Assembly: GCA_022823225.1 (NCBI GenBank)
Contig: JAJDXM010000055.1
Coordinates: forward strand, 1-64,000
Length of the DNA: 64,000 bases
Origin: Gemmatimonadota bacterium
Lineage (GTDB): Bacteria > Gemmatimonadota > Gemmatimonadetes > Longimicrobiales > Gaopeijiaceae
Direction: 5' to 3'
The notes below the pieces were generated by a model, which was not told the origin of the DNA, did no database searches, and saw only the letters and a program-made list of their open reading frames with translations. The position numbers and the translations under genes were made by a program. Of this stretch, positions 39,336 through 49,457 are shown piece after piece. The first letter of the stretch is position 1. Each line of letters begins with the position of its first letter.

Positions 39336-41258
39336 ATGGCAGCGAGCAGCGCACGCAGGATGATGGGCAGCGCCGCCGCGCTTCCTGCGCTCGCCCTCGC
39401 CGCCTGCGAACGCGACCTGACCGAGCTCGACCCGGCGGCCTTCCCACCCGAGCCGGCGGTCTTCTACGACGACTTCGCTCCGGGACTCCACTACGGAGCT
39501 TTCGGGGGGTCCAAGGTCGACGCCCTCGATATCGAACGCGATCTGGTCTACCGCGGAACCGCGGCCTTGAAGTTCTCCGTTCCGGCACCCAGCGATCCGA
39601 CGGGCGGCTACGCCGGGGGGGCCTTCTTCTCGACCGTGCCCCGGGATCTGTCGGGGTTCGACGCGCTGACCTTCTGGGCCCGCGCGAGCACGGCCGCTAC
39701 GCTGGACCGGGTCGGTTTCGGAGACGACAACACCGGCACCTCCCGCTTCCCGGCCACGCTCGACAATCTGTCGCTCTCGACCCGCTGGACGAAGTACGCG
39801 ATCCCCCTTCCACTGCCCGCCGTACTGGCCCAGGAGTCCGGACTCTTTCTCGTCGCGGACGCTTCCGAGTTTCCGGTCGGCTACGAGCTGTACTTCGACG
39901 ATGTTCAGTTCGAGCGGCTCGGCACGATCATCAATCCGCGGCCGGCGATCGACACGCGGACGGTAAGCGGCGAGGCCGGCGGCACCCTGGCGGTCGGCGG
40001 CACGCGCGTGACCTTCGACGTCAACGGGACCCACCTGACGGTCGGCGCCGCACCCGCGTACTTCACCTTCACCTCGTCGGACCCGGGGGTCGCGACGGTG
40101 AACCCCGACCACACCATCACGCTGGTCCGCCCCGGCACCGCCACGATCACGGCGACCCTGGGAGCGACCCCGGCCACGGGAGCGCTCACGGTCAACGTCG
40201 AGACGCCGCCAGAGGACGCGCCCCCGGTGCCGACGGTGCCCGCCGAGGACGTCATCTCCTTGTTCAGCGACGCCTACGCGGACGTGGCGGTCGACACCTG
40301 GTCGGCGGATTGGGACCAGGCCGACGTGGAAGACGTGGTCGTCGCCGGGAATCCGGTCAAGAAGTACACCAACCTGGCGTTTGCAGGCGTCGAGTTCACC
40401 TCGTCGACGATCGACGCCACGTCGATGACCCACCTCCACGTCGATCTGTGGACGAATGACGCCAACGCCTTCCGCATCAAGCTGGTGGACTTCGGCGCGA
40501 ACGGAATCTTCGGCGGAGGCGACGACAGCGAGCACGAGGTCACCTTCACGCCCGTGTCAACGACGCCGATCGCGCCGGGAACGTGGAACGTCCTAGACAT
40601 TCCGCTTTCGGCCTTCGGCGGACTGGCGGACCGCAGCCATCTCGCCCAGCTGATCATCTCCGGGTCGAGCCGGACGGTCTACCTGGACAACATCTACTTC
40701 TTCCAGGGTGAGACTCCCGTCGATCCCACAGGCCCCCCGGACCCCGCACCGACGCCCCAGGACGCGGCAAGGGACGTGATTTCGCTCTTCAGCGACGCGT
40801 ATGACGACGCGGCCATCGACACCTGGTCGGCGGAGTGGGACCAGGCCGACGTGGAGGACGTGGCGATCGAGGGCGACGCGACGAAGAAGTACACGAACCT
40901 GGTATTCGCGGGAATCGAGTTCACATCGCAGACCCTGGACGCCAGGAGCATGACGCACTTCCGAATGGACATCTGGACGCCGGACGAGACGGCGGCCGCG
41001 GGGTTCAAGGTGAAGCTGGTGGACTTCGGTGCGGATGGAGGGTTCGGCGGGGGGGACGACAGCGAGCACGAAGTCACTGTCACCGCCGCCGACGGGCTGG
41101 CGACGGGAGCGTGGGTGTCGCTGAATCTGCCCCTTGCGGACTTCGCCAACCTGGCCGGGAGGGAGAATCTGGCCCAGCTGATCATCTCGGGGGATCTGAG
41201 CACGGTCTACGTCGACAACGTCTATTTCCGGCGGCCCGCTTCCGGGCCCGGTCATTAA
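39336..41258 (+). CDS. Glycan-binding lipoprotein with Ig-like and two VISLFSDAY repeats
   Basis: 640 residues; ATG after AAGGTGAGG. Signal SAAALPALALAAC with lipobox. Residues about 35-190 form a carbohydrate-binding-like beta-sandwich (FYDDFAPGLHYGAFGG, TLDRVGFGDDN, ELYFDDVQF). A BIG2/Ig-like domain follows (TFDVNGTHLTVG, ATVNPDHTITLVRPGTATITATLG). Two ~145-residue repeats, at 40249 and 40777, have DVISLFSDAY, YTNL-FAG-EFTS, IKLVDFGA and VYxDNxYF. Such domains accompany GH16 laminarinases in Bacteroidetes, so beta-glucan capture at the surface is the inference. First gene after the left operator. Confidence 0.75.
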   Translation: MAASSARRMMGSAAALPALALAACERDLTELDPAAFPPEPAVFYDDFAPGLHYGAFGGSKVDALDIERDLVYRGTAALKFSVPAPSDPTGGYAGGAFFSTVPRDLSGFDALTFWARASTAATLDRVGFGDDNTGTSRFPATLDNLSLSTRWTKYAIPLPLPAVLAQESGLFLVADASEFPVGYELYFDDVQFERLGTIINPRPAIDTRTVSGEAGGTLAVGGTRVTFDVNGTHLTVGAAPAYFTFTSSDPGVATVNPDHTITLVRPGTATITATLGATPATGALTVNVETPPEDAPPVPTVPAEDVISLFSDAYADVAVDTWSADWDQADVEDVVVAGNPVKKYTNLAFAGVEFTSSTIDATSMTHLHVDLWTNDANAFRIKLVDFGANGIFGGGDDSEHEVTFTPVSTTPIAPGTWNVLDIPLSAFGGLADRSHLAQLIISGSSRTVYLDNIYFFQGETPVDPTGPPDPAPTPQDAARDVISLFSDAYDDAAIDTWSAEWDQADVEDVAIEGDATKKYTNLVFAGIEFTSQTLDARSMTHFRMDIWTPDETAAAGFKVKLVDFGADGGFGGGDDSEHEVTVTAADGLATGAWVSLNLPLADFANLAGRENLAQLIISGDLSTVYVDNVYFRRPASGPGH

Positions 41259-44200
41259 ACAGGAAAGAATTCATGAAATCGCACAGCAATCGCACAGTCC
41301 CAGTCCGGCGGTCGCCGGGACCCTTCACCCACCGCCACTCATTCCCACGGGGCTGGGCCGGCGTGCCCGTCGCGCTCCTTGTGTGCGGGGTGCTGGCCTG
41401 CGGCGACGACCCCGTCGAGCCGCCCGTCGCCACAACGGTCACGGTGTCCCCGGCGACGGCTTCGCTTGCATCGCTGGGTGAGACTGTCCAGCTGAGCGCC
41501 ATGGTTCGCGACCAGAACGGGGATGTGATGACCGGTGCGCCGGTGAGCTGGAGCTCGAGCGACGCCGCGGTCGCGTCAGTGAACACGTCGGGGCTGGTTA
41601 CGGCGGCGGGCAACGGGATGGCGACGATTACGGCGACCTCCGGGACCGCGAGCGGCACGGCGGCCGTCACGGTGGAGCAGGTCCCGACGGCGGTGTCGGT
41701 CACGCCCGAGTCGGTGACGCTCGCTGCGGTCGGAGAGACAGCTCAGTTCACAGCCGCGGTGCAGGATGCGAACGGGAACGCGGTCGCCGGCGCGGAGGTG
41801 AGTTGGGCGTCGGGGGACGAGGCGGTCGCGACGGTGGACGCGAACGGGCTCGTCACCGCGGTCGCCAACGGCACGGCGACGATCACCGCGACGTCCGGCA
41901 GCTTGAGCGAGAGCGGAACCGTGACGGTCGAGCAGGAAGCCGCGGCGGTCACGGTCGCGCCCGAATCGGTCCACTTGATCGTGTCCGGCGAGACGGCGCA
42001 GCTCGCGGCCGAGGTGACCGACGCGAACGGGAACGTGATCGAGGGTGCGACGGTGAGCTGGGCCTCGGCGGACGAGGCGGTTGCGACGGTGGACGCGAAC
42101 GGGCTTGTCGCCGCGGTGGCCGATGGCGCGACCATGGTCACCGCGACATCGGCCGGCGCGAGTGCGAGCGCGGCGGTCACGGTCATGCTGCAGGCCGCGC
42201 CCACCTCGGGGCCGCCCGCGCCGACCCACGCCGCACAGGACGTCATCTCGCTCTTCAGCGACGCCTACGAAGACGTGACGGTGGACACGTGGTCGGCGGT
42301 TTGGGATCAGGCCGATGTCGCGGACGTGGTGATCGCCGGGAACGCGGCAAGGAGATACACGAACCTGATCTTTGCAGGCGTCGAGTTCACTTCGCAGACG
42401 GTGGACGCGACGGACGCGACCCACTTCCGGATGGACATCTGGACGCCCGACGAGACCGCAGCCGCGGCATTCAGAGTGAAGTTGGTGGACTTCGGCGCGG
42501 ACGGCGCGTTCGGGGGCGGCGACGACAGCGAGCACGAGGTCGTGATCACGGCGGACGACGGGCTCGCGACGGAAGAGTGGGTGCAGCTGGACCTGCCGTT
42601 CACGGCCTTCCCGGGGCTCGCGGCGAGGGAACACCTGGCGCAGCTGATCATCTCGGGCGACCCGAATACGGTCTACGTGGACAACGTCTACTTCCGGCGG
42701 GGCGAGGCGCCGCCCCCGGAGCCCGTGCCTACCGAGGCGGCCCCGGTGCCCGGTGACGCGGCCGATGACGTGATTTCGCTCTACAGTGACGCATATGACG
42801 ATGTGACGGTGGACACCTGGTCGGCGGACTGGGACGTGGCGACCGTCGAGGACGTGGAGGTCGCGGGCAACGCGACCAAGAAGTACACCGGGCTGGTGTT
42901 TGCCGGGATCGAATTCACCTCCGCGACCGTCAACGCGGCCGACATGACCCACTTCCGCATGGACATCTGGACGCCGGACGAGACGGTGAACGCGGCATTC
43001 AAGGTCAAGCTGGTGGACTTCGGCTCCGACGGCGCCTGGTCCGGCGGCGACGACACCGAGCACGAGGTCACCATAACGGCCGCAGACGGCCTGGTGTCGC
43101 AGCAGTGGGTGCAGCTGGACCTGGCGCTGGCGGACTTCACTGGCCTGGGCGCGACGGAACACCTGGCGCAACTGATCATATCAGGCGACCCGAATACGCT
43201 CTACGTGGACAACGTGTACTTCCGGAAGGGGGCGGCACCGGCAGCACCGAGCGCGCCCGCTCCGACGCCGACGCACGGGGCGGACGCCGTGATCTCGCTC
43301 TTCAGCGGCCCGTACGCCGACGCCACGGTGGACACCTGGTCCGCGTCGTGGGACCAGGCCGACGTGGAGGACGTGGTGATCGAGGGCGATACGGTGAAGA
43401 AGTACACGAACCTTGTGTTCGCCGGGATCGAGTTCACGTCCGCGCCCATCGACGCCACCGCGATGACGCATTTCCACATGGACATCTGGACGCCCGACGA
43501 GACGGTGAACGCGGCGTTCAAGGTCAAGCTGGTGGACTTCGGGGCCGACGGCGCCTGGTCCGGCGGCGACGACACCGAACACGAGGTCACGCTCACCGCC
43601 GCCTCCGATCCCGCGCTGGCCACCGGCCAGTGGGTCAGCTACGATCTCGCGTTCGCCGACATGACCAACCTGGCTGCCCGCGAACACCTCGCCCAGCTGA
43701 TCATCTCCGGCGACCCGAACACGGTATTCGTGGACAACGTCTACTTCTATGCGCCGCCACCGAGCGAGCCTTCCGAGGCGGCGCCGACCCCGTCGCACCA
43801 CGCCGACAGCGTCATCTCGTTCTTCAGCGACGCCTACACCGACGTGACGGTCGACACCTGGTCCGCGTCGTGGGACCAGGCCGATGTCGAGGACGTGCAG
43901 ATCGCCGGGAATGCGACCAAGAGATACACGAACCTCGTATTCGCGGGTATCGAGTTCACCTCGAACGCCGTTGACGCCACCGGGATGACCCACTTCCGGA
44001 TCGACATCTGGACCCCCGACCCCACCGCCGCCCCGGCCGTCTTCAAGGTCAAGCTGGTGGACTTCGGTGCCGATGGCAGTTTCGCCGGAGGCGACGACAC
44101 CGAGCACGAGATCTCGCTCACCGCGAGTTCGGACCCGGCGCTCGCGACGGCCCAATGGTTGTCATACGACATCCCTCTGTCGGACTTCACGGCGCTCACG

Positions 44201-44277
44201 ACGCGGGGGCACCTTGCGCAGCTGATCATCTCCGGCGATCCCAATACGGTGTTCGTCGACAACGTGTACCTGCGCAA
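40240..44277 (+). repeat. Array of six ~145-residue VISLFSDAY domains across two genes
   Basis: Six related units start near 40249, 40777, 42241, 42769, 43291 and 43813. Each has DVISLFSDAY-(x)n-VDTWSAxWDxAxVxDV, a central MTHxHMDIWTPDE hairpin, VKLVDFGADG and a closing LAQLIISGDPNTVYVDNVYF. Nucleotide identity between the last four is high by eye, so recombination among them is likely. A seventh, permuted unit lies in the transporter gene at 46640. Confidence 0.8.
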
Positions 44278-44281
44278 ATGA
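41273..44281 (+). CDS. Large glycan-binding lipoprotein with three BIG2 and four VISLFSDAY domains
   Basis: 1002 residues; signal WAGVPVALLVCGVLACGDD with lipobox. Three BIG2 domains (about residues 45-135, 138-220, 222-305) each end in GxATITATSG-like strands and probably form a stalk. Four VISLFSDAY domains follow, joined by Pro/Ala-rich linkers such as PAPSAPAPTPTHG. The layout of a lipid anchor, a stalk and multiple binding heads suits cell-surface glucan capture. It starts 14 bases after the previous gene and its stop overlaps the ROK start (ATGA). Confidence 0.8.
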   Translation: MKSHSNRTVPVRRSPGPFTHRHSFPRGWAGVPVALLVCGVLACGDDPVEPPVATTVTVSPATASLASLGETVQLSAMVRDQNGDVMTGAPVSWSSSDAAVASVNTSGLVTAAGNGMATITATSGTASGTAAVTVEQVPTAVSVTPESVTLAAVGETAQFTAAVQDANGNAVAGAEVSWASGDEAVATVDANGLVTAVANGTATITATSGSLSESGTVTVEQEAAAVTVAPESVHLIVSGETAQLAAEVTDANGNVIEGATVSWASADEAVATVDANGLVAAVADGATMVTATSAGASASAAVTVMLQAAPTSGPPAPTHAAQDVISLFSDAYEDVTVDTWSAVWDQADVADVVIAGNAARRYTNLIFAGVEFTSQTVDATDATHFRMDIWTPDETAAAAFRVKLVDFGADGAFGGGDDSEHEVVITADDGLATEEWVQLDLPFTAFPGLAAREHLAQLIISGDPNTVYVDNVYFRRGEAPPPEPVPTEAAPVPGDAADDVISLYSDAYDDVTVDTWSADWDVATVEDVEVAGNATKKYTGLVFAGIEFTSATVNAADMTHFRMDIWTPDETVNAAFKVKLVDFGSDGAWSGGDDTEHEVTITAADGLVSQQWVQLDLALADFTGLGATEHLAQLIISGDPNTLYVDNVYFRKGAAPAAPSAPAPTPTHGADAVISLFSGPYADATVDTWSASWDQADVEDVVIEGDTVKKYTNLVFAGIEFTSAPIDATAMTHFHMDIWTPDETVNAAFKVKLVDFGADGAWSGGDDTEHEVTLTAASDPALATGQWVSYDLAFADMTNLAAREHLAQLIISGDPNTVFVDNVYFYAPPPSEPSEAAPTPSHHADSVISFFSDAYTDVTVDTWSASWDQADVEDVQIAGNATKRYTNLVFAGIEFTSNAVDATGMTHFRIDIWTPDPTAAPAVFKVKLVDFGADGSFAGGDDTEHEISLTASSDPALATAQWLSYDIPLSDFTALTTRGHLAQLIISGDPNTVFVDNVYLRK

Positions 44282-45495
44282 TCCCGCGCGAAGCTGTTGC
44301 GGTGCCGGAGGACGACCTGGCCCGGACGGTCCTGAACCTCGTCTGGGAGCGGCGGGCGGTCTCACGCGCCGAAATCGCACGCGGCACGGGACGGTCCCGC
44401 TCCACCATCTCCGAGGTGGTGGGGCGGCTCCTCGTCACGGGCCTGGTGGCGGAGGTCGGCGCCGGCGAGAGTCGCGGGGGCCGGCGTCCCATTCTGGTGG
44501 GATTCCAGGACGATGCGGGAGTGATTCTTGGGGTGGACGTGGGTGCGACCCATATCTCGGCGATTCTGACCGACCTTCGCGGGCGCGTGCTGGCCTGGCG
44601 TGAACGGGCTCACCCCGTGCGCACCGATCCCAAGGGCGCGGCGGCGCTGATTGCGGGGCTGGGCGAGGCATGTCTGGCCGAATGGAACGGGGAGCAGTCG
44701 CGACTCATGGGGATCGGTGTGGCCGTCCCCAGCCCGGTCGATCCCGGGTCGCCGGACCGGGTGCTGGAACGGGTGCTCCCGGCGTGGCGTGGCCACGGTG
44801 TGCTGGACCGGCTTAACCGCGTGTTCGGGGTGCCCGTCTTCGTGGACAACGACGCGAATCTGGGGGCGGTGGCGGAGCGGTGGTGGGGGGAGGCGGTCGG
44901 GATCGACGATTTCGTGTACCTGAAGGTCGCTACCGGGGTGGGGGCGGGGATCATGATCGGCGGTGAGATCTACCGTGGGTCCACAGGCGTCGCCGGCGAA
45001 ATCGGTCACGTGGCGATCGATCCGGGCGGACCCGAGTGCGTGTGCGGGAACCGGGGCTGTCTGGCGACCTTCGTGGGCACGCGCCAGCTCGTCGACCGGG
45101 CCAGGAGCCTTCTTGACGGCTACCCGGACAGCGCTCTCGTTGGAACCGAGCTCGGTATCCGCGCCATCGAGGACGCCGCGCTCGCCGACGACCCGCTCGC
45201 GCTGCAGGTCGTCAACGAGGCAGCGGTTCGCCTGGGCATCGTCGTCGCCGGCGTGCTGAATCTCCTGAACCCCGGATCGGTGATCCTTGGCGGGAGCCTG
45301 GCGAGGGTGGGCGACCGGCTCGTCAAACCGCTGCGCGAAGCCGTCGCCACCCGCACACTGGTGGCTTCGGCCGGGGCCTCGGACATCCGCACCAGTGACC
45401 TTGGCGAGCGGGCGGTCGCTCTGGGCGCCGCCACGCATGTGCTGGTGGCGGCCCTGGCCAATCCTCAGCTGTTTCCCGGCGTGAAATCGGCATGA
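44278..45495 (+). CDS. ROK-family transcriptional regulator of the glucan locus
   Basis: 405 residues. N-terminal winged helix (LARTVLNLVWERRAVSRAEIARGTGRSRSTISEVVGRLL), then a ROK sugar-kinase-like domain with GVDVGATHISAILTDL, VDNDANLGAVAE and GEIGHVAIDPGG, and the zinc motif CVCGNRGCL. The DNA-binding N-terminus marks it as a NagC/XylR-type regulator, not a kinase. It is coupled to the binding-lipoprotein gene and to GH16 by ATGA overlaps. The 25-bp palindromes at 39240 and 57549 are its likely sites. Confidence 0.88.
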   Translation: MIPREAVAVPEDDLARTVLNLVWERRAVSRAEIARGTGRSRSTISEVVGRLLVTGLVAEVGAGESRGGRRPILVGFQDDAGVILGVDVGATHISAILTDLRGRVLAWRERAHPVRTDPKGAAALIAGLGEACLAEWNGEQSRLMGIGVAVPSPVDPGSPDRVLERVLPAWRGHGVLDRLNRVFGVPVFVDNDANLGAVAERWWGEAVGIDDFVYLKVATGVGAGIMIGGEIYRGSTGVAGEIGHVAIDPGGPECVCGNRGCLATFVGTRQLVDRARSLLDGYPDSALVGTELGIRAIEDAALADDPLALQVVNEAAVRLGIVVAGVLNLLNPGSVILGGSLARVGDRLVKPLREAVATRTLVASAGASDIRTSDLGERAVALGAATHVLVAALANPQLFPGVKSA

Positions 45496-46295
45496 CCGGG
45501 GCGTGCCGCCGGCTCGTCCCCGTCGTGGCCCTCCTGTCCCTGGCCTGCGACAGCTTCGGCGCGGAGCCCGACCCCGACTGGACCCTGGTCTGGAGCGACG
45601 AATTCCACGGCCCCGCCGGGCAGCTGCCCAACCCCGCCAACTGGACCTTCGACATCGGCACCGACTGGGGCAACCGGCAACTCGAGTACGACACCGACCG
45701 CCCCGAGAACGTGTCGCTTGACGGCAACGGCAACCTCGCGATCACCGCGCGTCGCGAATCCTACCGCGGGAGCGCCTATACCTCCGGACGCATCAAGACA
45801 CAGGGGCTCTTCGAACAGGCGTACGGCCGCTTCGAGGCACGCATCCGGCTCCCCGCCGGGCGGGGGATCTGGCCCGCCTTCTGGATGCTCGGCAATGACT
45901 TCGGCACCGTGGGCTGGCCCGAGTGCGGCGAGATCGACATCATGGAGTACCGCGGCCAGGAGCCGTCGATCGTGCTCGGCACCGTCCACGGTCCCGGGTA
46001 CTCCGGAGGCGGTGGCATCGGGGCACGCTACGCGCTGACCGGCGCCCGCTTCGACACCGGATTCCACGAGTTCGCGATCGAGTGGACGGAGGAGCGCATC
46101 GTCTGGTTCGTGGACGGCCGGCGCTACCACGCCGTCGACCGGGACGATCCATCCGGCCGGTGGGTCTTCGACCACCCCTTCTTCCTGCTCCTGAACGTCG
46201 CCGTTGGGGGCACCTTCGTCGGACCGCCGAACGCGTCCACGACCTTCCCGCAGTCCATGCTCGTCGACTGGGTGCGCGTCTACCGCGCCGGGTGA
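45492..46295 (+). CDS. GH16 endo-beta-1,3-glucanase (laminarinase-type) lipoprotein
   Basis: 267 residues with signal VPVVALLSLACDS (lipobox). WTLVWSDEFHGPAGQLPNPANWTFDIG and WGNRQLEYDT are typical GH16_3 motifs. The catalytic ECGEIDIMEYRG holds the nucleophile and acid/base Glu in ExDxxE, and it ends VDWVRVYRAG. It cuts internal beta-1,3-glucan (laminarin-like) linkages, presumably at the cell surface. ATGA overlap with the ROK gene. Confidence 0.92.
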   Translation: MTGACRRLVPVVALLSLACDSFGAEPDPDWTLVWSDEFHGPAGQLPNPANWTFDIGTDWGNRQLEYDTDRPENVSLDGNGNLAITARRESYRGSAYTSGRIKTQGLFEQAYGRFEARIRLPAGRGIWPAFWMLGNDFGTVGWPECGEIDIMEYRGQEPSIVLGTVHGPGYSGGGGIGARYALTGARFDTGFHEFAIEWTEERIVWFVDGRRYHAVDRDDPSGRWVFDHPFFLLLNVAVGGTFVGPPNASTTFPQSMLVDWVRVYRAG

Positions 46296-46327
46296 CCCGG
46301 TGAGCAGCGGGTGACCCGGTGAGCAGG
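46290..46327 (+). repeat. 19-bp tandem duplication at the GH16-transporter junction
   Basis: Two adjacent copies of GGGTGACCCGGTGAGCAG(C/G) at 46290-46308 and 46309-46327. The first contains the GH16 stop TGA and the second the GTG start of the transporter. Only the second GTG continues in an open frame. Confidence 0.85.
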
Positions 46328-48484
46328 CGGACCGCCCCCGAAGACCGGGTATCGTCCCCGCACAAAGTCATCTACGGGATCGGCGGGTTCACGAACAACC
46401 TGCTGGGCCAGGGCATCGGCAACATGATGGCCGTGCTGACCCTGGCGCTGGGTGTGGACTTCCGCGCCGTCGGCCTGCTCGGCGGCCTGCCGCGCTTCTT
46501 CGACGCCCTCACCGATCCGCTCGTCGGCTTCGTGTCGGACAAGACGCGGTCCCGCTGGGGACGGCGGCGCCCGTTCCTCTTCGGGGGCGCGATCTCGGCG
46601 GGCGTCGTCTTCCTGCTGCTCTGGCAGATGCCGGCGCCCACGCAGCTGCGGCTCAAGCTGGTCGACTACGGGGCCGACCGCGTCTACAGCGGTGAGACGG
46701 ACGAATCCGAGGGGTGGCTGCGGGCCGCGGGCGACGCGCTAAGGGGGATCTTCACGGTGGAGGCGATCGACGATGTCGAGGACGAGGTCGCCGTTCTGCC
46801 CCCCACGCTGGTCACGGGCGCCTGGGTGAGCGTGGACGTGCCGCTGAGCGACTTCGACGGGCTCGCCACGCGCGAGAACCTGGCGCAGATGGTGATTTCG
46901 GGCGATCTGACCGAGGTGTACGTCGACAACGTGTATTTCTACCGCTCGGGCGAGGCGGCCGCGGGGGGACTGCCGGCGACGCCCCCCCCCGGCCAGGATG
47001 TCGAGGGTGCCACCGTCCCTGTCACTGGAGCGCCGGCCCCCGGGGTCCCGCCCGAGGACGTGATCTCCCTTTTCAGCGCCGCCTACCAGGACGTGCCGGT
47101 CGGGTCCTGGTCCGCCGACCCGGACGCGGCCGACCTGGCGGATGCCCAGGCCGGCGGCGACGAAGTCAAGCACTACACCAACCTTCGCGTCGCGACGATC
47201 GACTTCGGCAGCACCCCGATCGACGCCGGCGCGATGACGCACCTCCACATCGACATCTGGACCCCGGACGAGACCGGAGAGGGCTGGAGCCAGCAGGCCT
47301 ACTTCTGGTACTTCCTCATCGGGTCGCTGGTCTTCTTCCTGGCCTACACGATCTTCGCGACGCCGTGGGTGGCGCTCGGGTACGAACTCACCCCCGACTA
47401 CAATGAGCGCACCCGCCTCATGGGCGTGCAAAACTTCGTGTCCAACACCGTGTTCGTGATCGGCCCGTGGTTCCTCGTGATCGCGACCAACCCGGTGTGG
47501 TTCCGGAACCAGATGGACGGTGCCCGCTTCGTCGCGCTCGCGATCTGCGTCGCGACGATCGTGCTGGGCGTGCTGCCCGCGATTTTTCTGCGGGAGCGCG
47601 TGATCGGCGGAGGCGCGGCGGCGGCGGGTCCGGACCGCCGAGGCTCCCGGGCAAGCGGCGCGGACGAGCGCGCTGGCGGCCATGGCACCGGGGGACGCGT
47701 CACGAATCCGCGTACGGAGGGCCCCGGCTTCGGCGCGAGCGCGATGGAGTTTCTGCGCGGCCTGTGGCAAACGCTCAGCACCGGTCCCTTTCTGCTGCTC
47801 TGCATCGCGACCTTCCTGATGTTCAACAGCTTCATCATGATCTCGCAGTTCCAGTTCTGGGTGTTCGCCTTCTACATCACCGGCGGCAACGTCCCGGAAG
47901 GGGCTGCGCTCGCCGGCGTGGTCGGGACGGTGGGCACCGTCACCGGCTTCCTGGTGATCGCGCTCGTCACCTGGCTGGGGACCAGGATCGGGAAGAGGAA
48001 CGCGTTCTTCGTGTCCACGGGCATTTCGATGCTCGGATACGCGCTCAAGTGGTTCTGCTACACGCCCGACCAGCCCCTGCTGGCGCTGCTGCCCGCCCCG
48101 TTCCTGGCCTTCGGACTCGGCGGCCTCTTCACCCTCATGGGGTCGATGATCGCCGACGTGGTGGACCTGGACGAGATCACCACCGGAGAGCGTCGCGAAG
48201 GCATGTTCGGGTCGGTTTTCTGGTGGATGGTGAAGCTCGGCCAGAGCGGCGCGATCGTGCTCGGCGGGTTCCTGCTCTACTCGACCGGGCTCGACGCGTC
48301 GCTGGGCGCGAATCAGCCCGAAGGAACGATCTTCTGGCTGCGCGTCTACGACGCCTTCGTGCCGCTGATCGCGTCGGCGATCGCGATCTACGCCGTGTAC
48401 CGGTACCCGATCACCGAGCAGAGCGCGGGCGAGGTGAGGGCGGAGCTGGAGCGGCGGCGGGGGCGTGGCAAGACGCTGAGGTAG
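46319..48484 (+). CDS. GPH/MFS sugar transporter with inserted glycan-binding domain
   Basis: 721 residues from GTG. The host is a GPH (MelB-type) sugar:cation symporter: IYGIGGFTNNLLGQGIGN (TM1), DALTDPLVGFVSDKTRSRWGRRRPFLF (TM2-3 loop), YFWYFLIGSLVFFLAYTIFATPWVALGYEL (TM4), ERTRLMG, and IADVVDLDEITTGERREGMFGSVFWWMVKLGQS late. Without the insert it is 508 residues, near the family length. Residues about 108-320, in the short periplasmic TM3-TM4 loop, are a permuted VISLFSDAY domain. It lies 23 bases after GH16, consistent with import of glucan oligomers. No frameshift disturbs it. Confidence 0.85.
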   Translation: MSRRTAPEDRVSSPHKVIYGIGGFTNNLLGQGIGNMMAVLTLALGVDFRAVGLLGGLPRFFDALTDPLVGFVSDKTRSRWGRRRPFLFGGAISAGVVFLLLWQMPAPTQLRLKLVDYGADRVYSGETDESEGWLRAAGDALRGIFTVEAIDDVEDEVAVLPPTLVTGAWVSVDVPLSDFDGLATRENLAQMVISGDLTEVYVDNVYFYRSGEAAAGGLPATPPPGQDVEGATVPVTGAPAPGVPPEDVISLFSAAYQDVPVGSWSADPDAADLADAQAGGDEVKHYTNLRVATIDFGSTPIDAGAMTHLHIDIWTPDETGEGWSQQAYFWYFLIGSLVFFLAYTIFATPWVALGYELTPDYNERTRLMGVQNFVSNTVFVIGPWFLVIATNPVWFRNQMDGARFVALAICVATIVLGVLPAIFLRERVIGGGAAAAGPDRRGSRASGADERAGGHGTGGRVTNPRTEGPGFGASAMEFLRGLWQTLSTGPFLLLCIATFLMFNSFIMISQFQFWVFAFYITGGNVPEGAALAGVVGTVGTVTGFLVIALVTWLGTRIGKRNAFFVSTGISMLGYALKWFCYTPDQPLLALLPAPFLAFGLGGLFTLMGSMIADVVDLDEITTGERREGMFGSVFWWMVKLGQSGAIVLGGFLLYSTGLDASLGANQPEGTIFWLRVYDAFVPLIASAIAIYAVYRYPITEQSAGEVRAELERRRGRGKTLR
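46640..47278 (+). other. Circularly permuted VISLFSDAY domain inside the transporter
   Basis: The 213-residue insert first reads the C-terminal half of the repeat (LRLKLVDYGAD, WVSVDVPLSDFDGLATRENLAQMVISGDLTEVYVDNVYFYR). Then come a Pro/Gly/Ala linker (TPPPGQDVEG...GAPAPGVPP) and the N-terminal half (DVISLFSAAYQDVPVGSWSADPD, HYTNLRVATIDFG, MTHLHIDIWTPDET). The cut falls in the hairpin between DIWTPDET and VKLVDFG, so both ends of the insert would lie side by side, as needed for insertion into a loop. The linker equals those between tandem repeats, so the insert looks like one period taken from a repeat array. Confidence 0.8.
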
Positions 48485-48605
48485 CAGCTCCAAGGCGGTC
48501 TTCGTCTTCGGGGCTCTTGCGTTTCAGGAACGGCTCCCCACACCATCTGGACGGCGAATCTTGTGAATGGAGCGGTGATACTCCGCGCTGGCCCCGTGAC
48601 CGACC

Positions 48606-48623
48606 TTGTGAACGACTTCACAA
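48606..48623. promoter_or_regulatory. TGTGA-N6-TCACA palindrome (CRP-like site) before the selenoprotein gene
   Basis: TTGTGAA-CGAC-TTCACAA, perfect 7-bp arms, with the CRP/FNR-type TGTGA-N6-TCACA core, lies 67 bases before the ATG at 48690. A similar site covers the GH3 start at 54218. A LacI-type repressor could also use it. Confidence 0.5.
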
Positions 48624-48689
48624 TCTCGCCTCTTTCATCCGTATCGCTCTTCCAGCCGGTTCAGATCACCCGTTTCCCGCAGGCCTACC

Positions 48690-49343
48690 ATGCCCACACT
48701 CGCACAGACACTCAAGCGGATCAGGGAAGCCGGAGCAGCCAGGCGCGACCCTGCTATCAAAAGGACACTCGTACGCGGAACGGCCGACCTGAAGGCGTCG
48801 GGAATCCTGGACGGCGTGGTGAAGACCGGCGACAGGGCGCCCCTCTTCGCCCGGCTCAATCTGAGTCACGACACGGTGCGGCTCGCGCGGGTGCTGCGGC
48901 GTGGCCCTGTGGTCGTAAGCTTCTTTCGCGGCCGCTGGTGACCCTACTGCCGCGCGGAGCAGGCTGCTCTCCAGTCACTTCTGCCCGAGTTCACGGCGCG
49001 GGGCGCAACCGTGATTACCCTGTCGCCTCAGCTGCACAACTTCGCGGCTGCGTGGGCGCGGGAAGACGGGATCGGGTTCGACATCCTCGTGGACAGCGGC
49101 AACGGGGTCGCACGCTCGTACGGGCTGGTCTTCCGGATGCCCGATGCGTTGCAGGACGTCTATCGGGATCACCTGCGGATCGACGTCGCCCGGTTCAATG
49201 GCGATACGACGTGGGAATTGCCCATTCCGGCGACGTACGTAGTCGGGCAGGACGGGATCGTGGCGTGGGCGGGGGTCGACGCGGACTACACGGAACGGCC
49301 GGAGCCGGAGGAATTGCTGAAGGTGCTGGACGGGATGGGTTGA
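48690..49343 (+). CDS. Peroxiredoxin-like selenoprotein (UPYC redox motif)
   Basis: 217 residues if the in-frame UGA at 48939-48941 (residue 84) is read as selenocysteine. The sequence runs GPVVVSFFRGRW-U-PYCRAEQAALQSLLPEF, exactly where homologues of the AhpC/TSA-like family have RGGWCPYC. The protein continues in frame with GATVITLSPQ, VDSGNGVARSYGLVF, NGDTTWELPIPATYVVGQDGIVAWAGVDADYTERPEP, all family motifs, to a TGA at 49343. A SECIS-like stem-loop follows the UGA. Predicted thiol-dependent peroxidase or disulfide reductase in the cytoplasm. A gene caller would report an 83-residue and a 110-residue fragment. Confidence 0.85.
48939..48972 (+). promoter_or_regulatory. Selenocysteine UGA with bacterial SECIS-like stem-loop
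   Basis: Nineteen bases after the UGA, GGAGC (48956-48960) pairs with GCTC-T-CC (48966-48972) around the loop AGGCT. This parallels the E. coli fdhF SECIS, where a GC-closed AGGUCU loop with a bulged U lies 17 bases after the UGA. Flanking ACT and AGT may extend the stem. SelB would bind here. Confidence 0.7.
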
Positions 49344-49457
49344 GGGAGGGCGGGTACACGAGAGTGCCCGCGCCCCGGGATCTGCATCGACCGGCGTCGC
49401 GATGACGACGAACACGGGCTCGAGGTACGGTGTTCCGGCCGGATCCACCCCGCCCCA

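Follow-up and report, generated by a model that had tools for sequence, protein, structure and literature searches.

A peroxiredoxin-like gene with an in-frame UGA at a W-U-P-Y-C site in a Gemmatimonadota genome: a predicted selenoprotein

The locus and its interrupted frame

The window analyzed here is a stretch of 64,000 nucleotides from a Gemmatimonadota genome. At positions 48690–49343 of its plus strand lies a peroxiredoxin-like gene that we read as encoding a selenoprotein of 217 residues plus stop, with selenocysteine (Sec) at residue 84. The frame opens with ATG at 48690 and ends with TGA at 49341–49343; an internal TGA at 48939–48941 forms codon 84. Read as Sec, this UGA supplies the U of a W-U-P-Y-C motif, where homologues have Cys, as a preliminary description of the locus had proposed. 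Calling ORFs without read-through returned two separate ORFs, one at 48690–48941 (83 aa) and one, started by GTG, at 49011–49343 (110 aa)—the fragmentation foreseen for standard gene calling. The gene exemplifies those that standard annotation would split or shorten in many genomes.

Coding signal continues across the internal stop. When every TGA in the window was scanned for codon bias, the one at 48939–48941 ranked first among those flanked by coding frame on both sides, with an equal signal of +13.9 on each. The earlier claim of same-frame coding to the natural end also held: the frame stays open to the final TGA, and residues 47–193 of the read-through product match PF00578 (AhpC-TSA) at E = 8.8e-26 and 90.7 bits (Pfam gathering cut-off, 26). 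A promoter scan gave no signal beyond chance.

Upstream of the gene, an MFS_2 sugar transporter (46319–48484) contains an insertion of about 210 residues (residues 110–320) that is 43–52% identical to repeats of a Big_2-domain protein encoded farther upstream (40835–44281). It would be unusual for a transporter to contain such a module. Several other genomes of the genus yield matches across the same full span at 67–87% identity, which makes an assembly error improbable. Adjoining the transporter, 44155–46295 holds a ROK-family regulator and a glycoside hydrolase family 16 gene, a probable beta-glucan use locus.

Conservation on both sides of the UGA

We compared 395 Gemmatimonadota genomes, counting the gene as present at E ≤ 1e-20. 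It occurs in 42 of them; 41 copies have exactly one internal TGA, and the other (in G244) has none, with TGC at that codon. The internal TGA falls on the first residue of UPYC, equivalent to codon 84, in all 41 UGA-form genes, and the genomes that carry these belong to several families, with protein identity falling as low as about 38%. TGC or TGT stands at codon 84 in 12 of 12 Cys-form homologues; those from Pseudomonadota and Bacteroidota bear the NCBI annotation "peroxiredoxin-like family protein." Alignment, which the preliminary description had suggested as a check, pairs Sec with Cys exactly at this residue. The true stop varies freely among TGA, TAG, and TAA in the UGA-form genes (one of which is cut by a contig end). 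Pairwise dN/dS downstream of the UGA was 0.05–0.45, with similar values upstream; judged from these ratios, purifying selection acts on both sides.

These patterns weigh on whether the locus is a pseudogene, in which a nonsense mutation or sequencing error would have replaced a Cys codon with a stop, leaving only a truncated protein. Such a lesion agrees with plain translation, which yields two fragments. Recurrence of the same TGA across families, purifying selection downstream of it, and the varying true stops speak against a pseudogene and make it vanishingly improbable; a mixture of stop codons among relatives, the earlier-named mark of a true pseudogene, did not appear, with no TAA, TAG, or frameshift at codon 84 in any relative compared. 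With about 40 related genomes showing this arrangement too, we take 48690–49343 to be one intact gene that makes a full-length selenoprotein, its UGA inserting Sec at the active site (probability about 0.95). We infer Sec incorporation itself, as well as the protein's reaction, substrate, and electron donor.

A full SelA is encoded in 40 of the 41 UGA-form genomes; the overall figure is 282 of 395 (P = 8e-6 by a hypergeometric test, uncorrected for kinship). In the lone UGA-form genome with a partial SelA match (G334), the assembly is 90% complete. A tree of 53 proteins intermixes Sec and Cys rows, giving three changes between the two states, at least two of which are forced by well-supported branches, and several long branches make the exact count of exchanges unsure. 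About 70% of the genomes sampled from this little-studied phylum have SelA, and the gene gives the phylum a further selenoprotein, one for which the comparative evidence is strong.

A fixed-offset hairpin and the host Sec machinery

A putative bSECIS hairpin, GGAGCA-GGC-UGCUCU with an invariant GAGC/GCUC core, lies at 48956–48970 (plus strand). The preliminary description put it 19 bases after the UGA; that figure is the distance to the loop, since the GGAGC arm begins 14 nt after the UGA. Depending on how the loop is drawn, it starts at 19 nt (AGGCU) or 20 nt (GGC). The published bSECIS model has a stem of 4–16 bp, a loop of 3–9 nt with G in the first two loop positions, 16–37 nt from UGA to loop, and a minimum free energy at or below −7.5 kcal/mol (PMC13188914, Fig. 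2A). With a 6-bp stem, a GGC loop, and a distance of 20 nt, the host hairpin fits this geometry, and the proposed likeness to bacterial SECIS elements in spacing and loop type holds. Folded in isolation, the host hairpin reaches −6.3 kcal/mol (z = 0.30, like shuffled sequences), weaker than the model limit; among relatives, the L037 hairpin reaches −10.7 kcal/mol. A wider 50-nt host fold reached −13.4 but with other pairing (z = 0.69, no better than shuffles).

Single-sequence folding was thus not significant, and we rejected thermodynamics alone as support for the hairpin. Free-energy ranking of SECIS candidates was likewise discarded; it returned the wrong register for the window gene, having scored the surrounding fold and not the core stem. 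A fixed-offset stem test was used in its place.

Because the host sequence folds no better than shuffles, the case for the hairpin is comparative. At the fixed offset, 41 of 41 UGA orthologues have at least 4 contiguous base pairs and a loop G, versus 0 of 12 Cys homologues; synonymous resampling gives an expectation of about 8% per gene. Folding, which had been recommended as a check, was unremarkable on the host sequence alone, and support for the element came from its retention among orthologues. Codon choice carries the same imprint. All 29 distinct genes use GCT for the Ala at +9, where the background usage is 16%; this is the greatest excess uniformity of the 130 codon columns scored, and the Glu codon at +6, GAG in 29 of 29, ranks second. 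These two codons make up the two hairpin arms, and their usage indicates that the hairpin freezes codons otherwise free to vary. For the question of what SelB recognizes in this lineage, the frozen codons make a clean natural data set.

Outside the core, pairing is looser. The outer hairpin pairs covary (covariation score 0.093 versus 0.056 after shuffling; 0/500), with GAGCA/UGCUC changed to GAGCU/AGCUC in L073 and L078, and they are absent from part of the sequences. RNAalifold found only the 4-bp core, without covariation inside it. Given this variability and partial loss of the outer pairs, we base the case for a structure on the core, its offset, and the codon freeze. An Rfam scan of 48600–49400 returned no SECIS family or other element, only chance-level matches.

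The host assembly (4.19 Mb in 97 contigs; 96% complete) encodes all four components of Sec synthesis and insertion that the preliminary description had asked after. The tRNA-Sec (selC) scores 79.6 bits, above the Rfam cut-off, and ARAGORN assigns it the anticodon TCA (UCA); SelA (470.4 bits), SelB (306.9 bits), and SelD (381.1 bits) all lie above their curated cut-offs. The SelD gene (L018; contig C52:13402–14319) has one internal TGA of its own, in frame at L018:1531 in the context HGAG-U-GCKLG and followed downstream by a strong inverted repeat, GCUCGGC-CAG-GCCGAGC; the host SelD is predicted to be itself a selenoprotein.

An open frame alone does not tell which residue goes in, and an alternative code or a suppressor could place Trp or another ordinary residue at the UGA. 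Position 84 is, however, Cys in homologues and never Trp, and TGA also terminates this gene and many of its orthologues. The complete Sec machinery and a hairpin kept at SECIS distance in UGA forms only add to the case against an ordinary residue, which we consider very improbable. Under the selenoprotein reading, SelB carrying Sec-tRNA(Sec) would bind the hairpin about 19–20 nt past the UGA, and Sec would be inserted at residue 84 in place of termination.

Fold, active site, and relation to known families

The product is predicted to adopt a peroxiredoxin fold. An AlphaFold2 model built from eight sequences reached a pLDDT of 85.0 and a pTM of 0.84. Among solved structures it lies closest to peroxiredoxins, with AhpE at Z = 20.7 (rmsd 1.6 across 151 residues) and Bcp4 at Z = 20.5. 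The fold domain covers residues about 45–217 (48822–49340, plus strand). It is preceded by a modeled N-terminal extension of two helices, residues about 4–36 (48693–48797, plus strand), which has lower model confidence and lies outside the span of the structural matches. No NCBIfam model scored above its cut-off for the protein.

The active-site stretch reads VVVSFFRGRW-U-PYCRAEQ. Its W-U-P-Y-C site resembles the thioredoxin CxxC at the level of sequence, and of the solved structures, 3hdc, a thioredoxin-family protein with WCPYC, matches best in sequence. Cys87 (48948–48950, plus strand), the partner of Sec84 in UxxC, falls on the alignment position of the peroxiredoxin peroxidatic Cys: in the alignment with the thiol peroxidase 2cx3 it stands opposite the Cys of S-P-V-C, in this family the peroxidatic Cys, and Sec84 stands opposite the Ser. 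By this pairing, the peroxiredoxin Pro and Thr are lost; measured against the canonical PxxxTxxC/U motif, Arg80 stands for Pro and Sec84 for Thr, with Cys87 in the Cys place.

Two functional readings can be drawn from this site. In a true peroxiredoxin, Sec84 or Cys87 would reduce H2O2 or alkyl hydroperoxides and the protein would not be a general disulphide reductase; the fold, the AhpE and Bcp neighbors, and the alignment of Cys87 and Sec84 with the peroxidatic Cys and the Ser/Thr three residues earlier fit this reading, while the missing PxxxTxxC signature, the thioredoxin-like W-U-P-Y-C, and the 3hdc match count against it. We regard it as quite possible without favoring it. Thioredoxin-type chemistry of the Sec84/Cys87 protein is, in our assessment, moderately probable. 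With Sec standing in for the catalytic Thr and a second Cys in the peroxidatic place, a thioredoxin-type selenenyl-sulphide reductase or peroxidase would be the most likely function. In such a cycle, the Sec84 selenolate would attack a disulphide or peroxide, Cys87 would resolve the intermediate to a Sec84–Cys87 selenenyl-sulphide, and the cycle would close with its reduction by thioredoxin or a similar thiol. A neighborhood comparison found no conserved gene neighbors common to different genera that would hint at the substrate.

The replacement of Cys by Sec in thiol-oxidoreductase folds had been noted at the outset as a recurrent theme, and proteins of this kind are already catalogued. Sec-containing Prx-like UxxC proteins were reported from the Sargasso Sea (22 sequences; PMC1088965) and in the GOS data (225 sequences in Prx-like 1, PF00578; PMC2398784), and a 2026 catalogue has Prx-like UxxC beside cd02970 UxxS and Redoxin UxxC families (PMC13188914). 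The protein of 48690–49343, with PF00578 and a UxxC motif, belongs to this broad class. It shares with the Prx-like thiol:disulfide oxidoreductase selenoproteins the PF00578 domain, Sec in the first position of UxxC, a thioredoxin-like motif, and a peroxiredoxin-related fold; it differs from the Prx-like UxxC selenoproteins, in a comparison by description only, in its N-terminal helical extension and W-U-P-Y-C. The cd02970 UxxS peroxiredoxin-like/AhpC-TSA family selenoprotein, from an Olavius symbiont metagenome (PMC13188914), also has Sec at the first motif position and the same NCBI label as the closest Cys homologues; its motif is UxxS and not UxxC, and a putative cd02970 link for the present protein is suggested by the NCBI product names of its homologues.

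Other Sec-containing relatives are more distant. PrxU, a Sec-peroxiredoxin with TxxU, shares the peroxiredoxin fold but carries Sec at the peroxidatic Cys, whereas here Sec lies three residues earlier, in the Thr place, and the peroxidatic Cys is kept; the NF040737 PrxU model scores the protein at 12.1 bits (cut-off 270). SelL and SelL-related proteins (NF040769) have a thioredoxin/peroxiredoxin-like redox domain, to which the match is weak (33.5 bits; cut-off 120). SelL contains two Sec in a UxxU motif, in contrast to the UxxC found here. The eukaryotic selenoprotein U/PRXL2 group has a peroxiredoxin-like fold with a CxxC/Sec motif; its SECIS and lineage are eukaryotic, and the likeness is no more than a lead.

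In a literature search covering few subscription journals, no paper mentioned this Gemmatimonadota protein or referred to a UPYC motif. Set beside the catalogued families by description only, the protein perhaps represents a new subfamily. We tentatively suggest, short of favoring it, that it belongs to a distinct, uncatalogued Sec subfamily, patchy in Gemmatimonadota and marked by the helical extension and W-U-P-Y-C, with Sec at the catalytic-Thr place and Cys at the peroxidatic place. Were that so, the Sec/Cys pair may be what turns a peroxiredoxin scaffold toward chemistry of the thioredoxin type.

The same genome encodes a second Prx-like gene outside the window, on the same contig (L022; C61:94843–95322, minus strand). 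Its product is about 32–36% identical to that of 48690–49343, and here too a TGA lies in frame within W-U-P-Y-C; the gene's own hairpin, UCAGCUC-GUG-GAGCUGA, has its loop 21 nt past the UGA. It is likely a second Prx-like selenoprotein.
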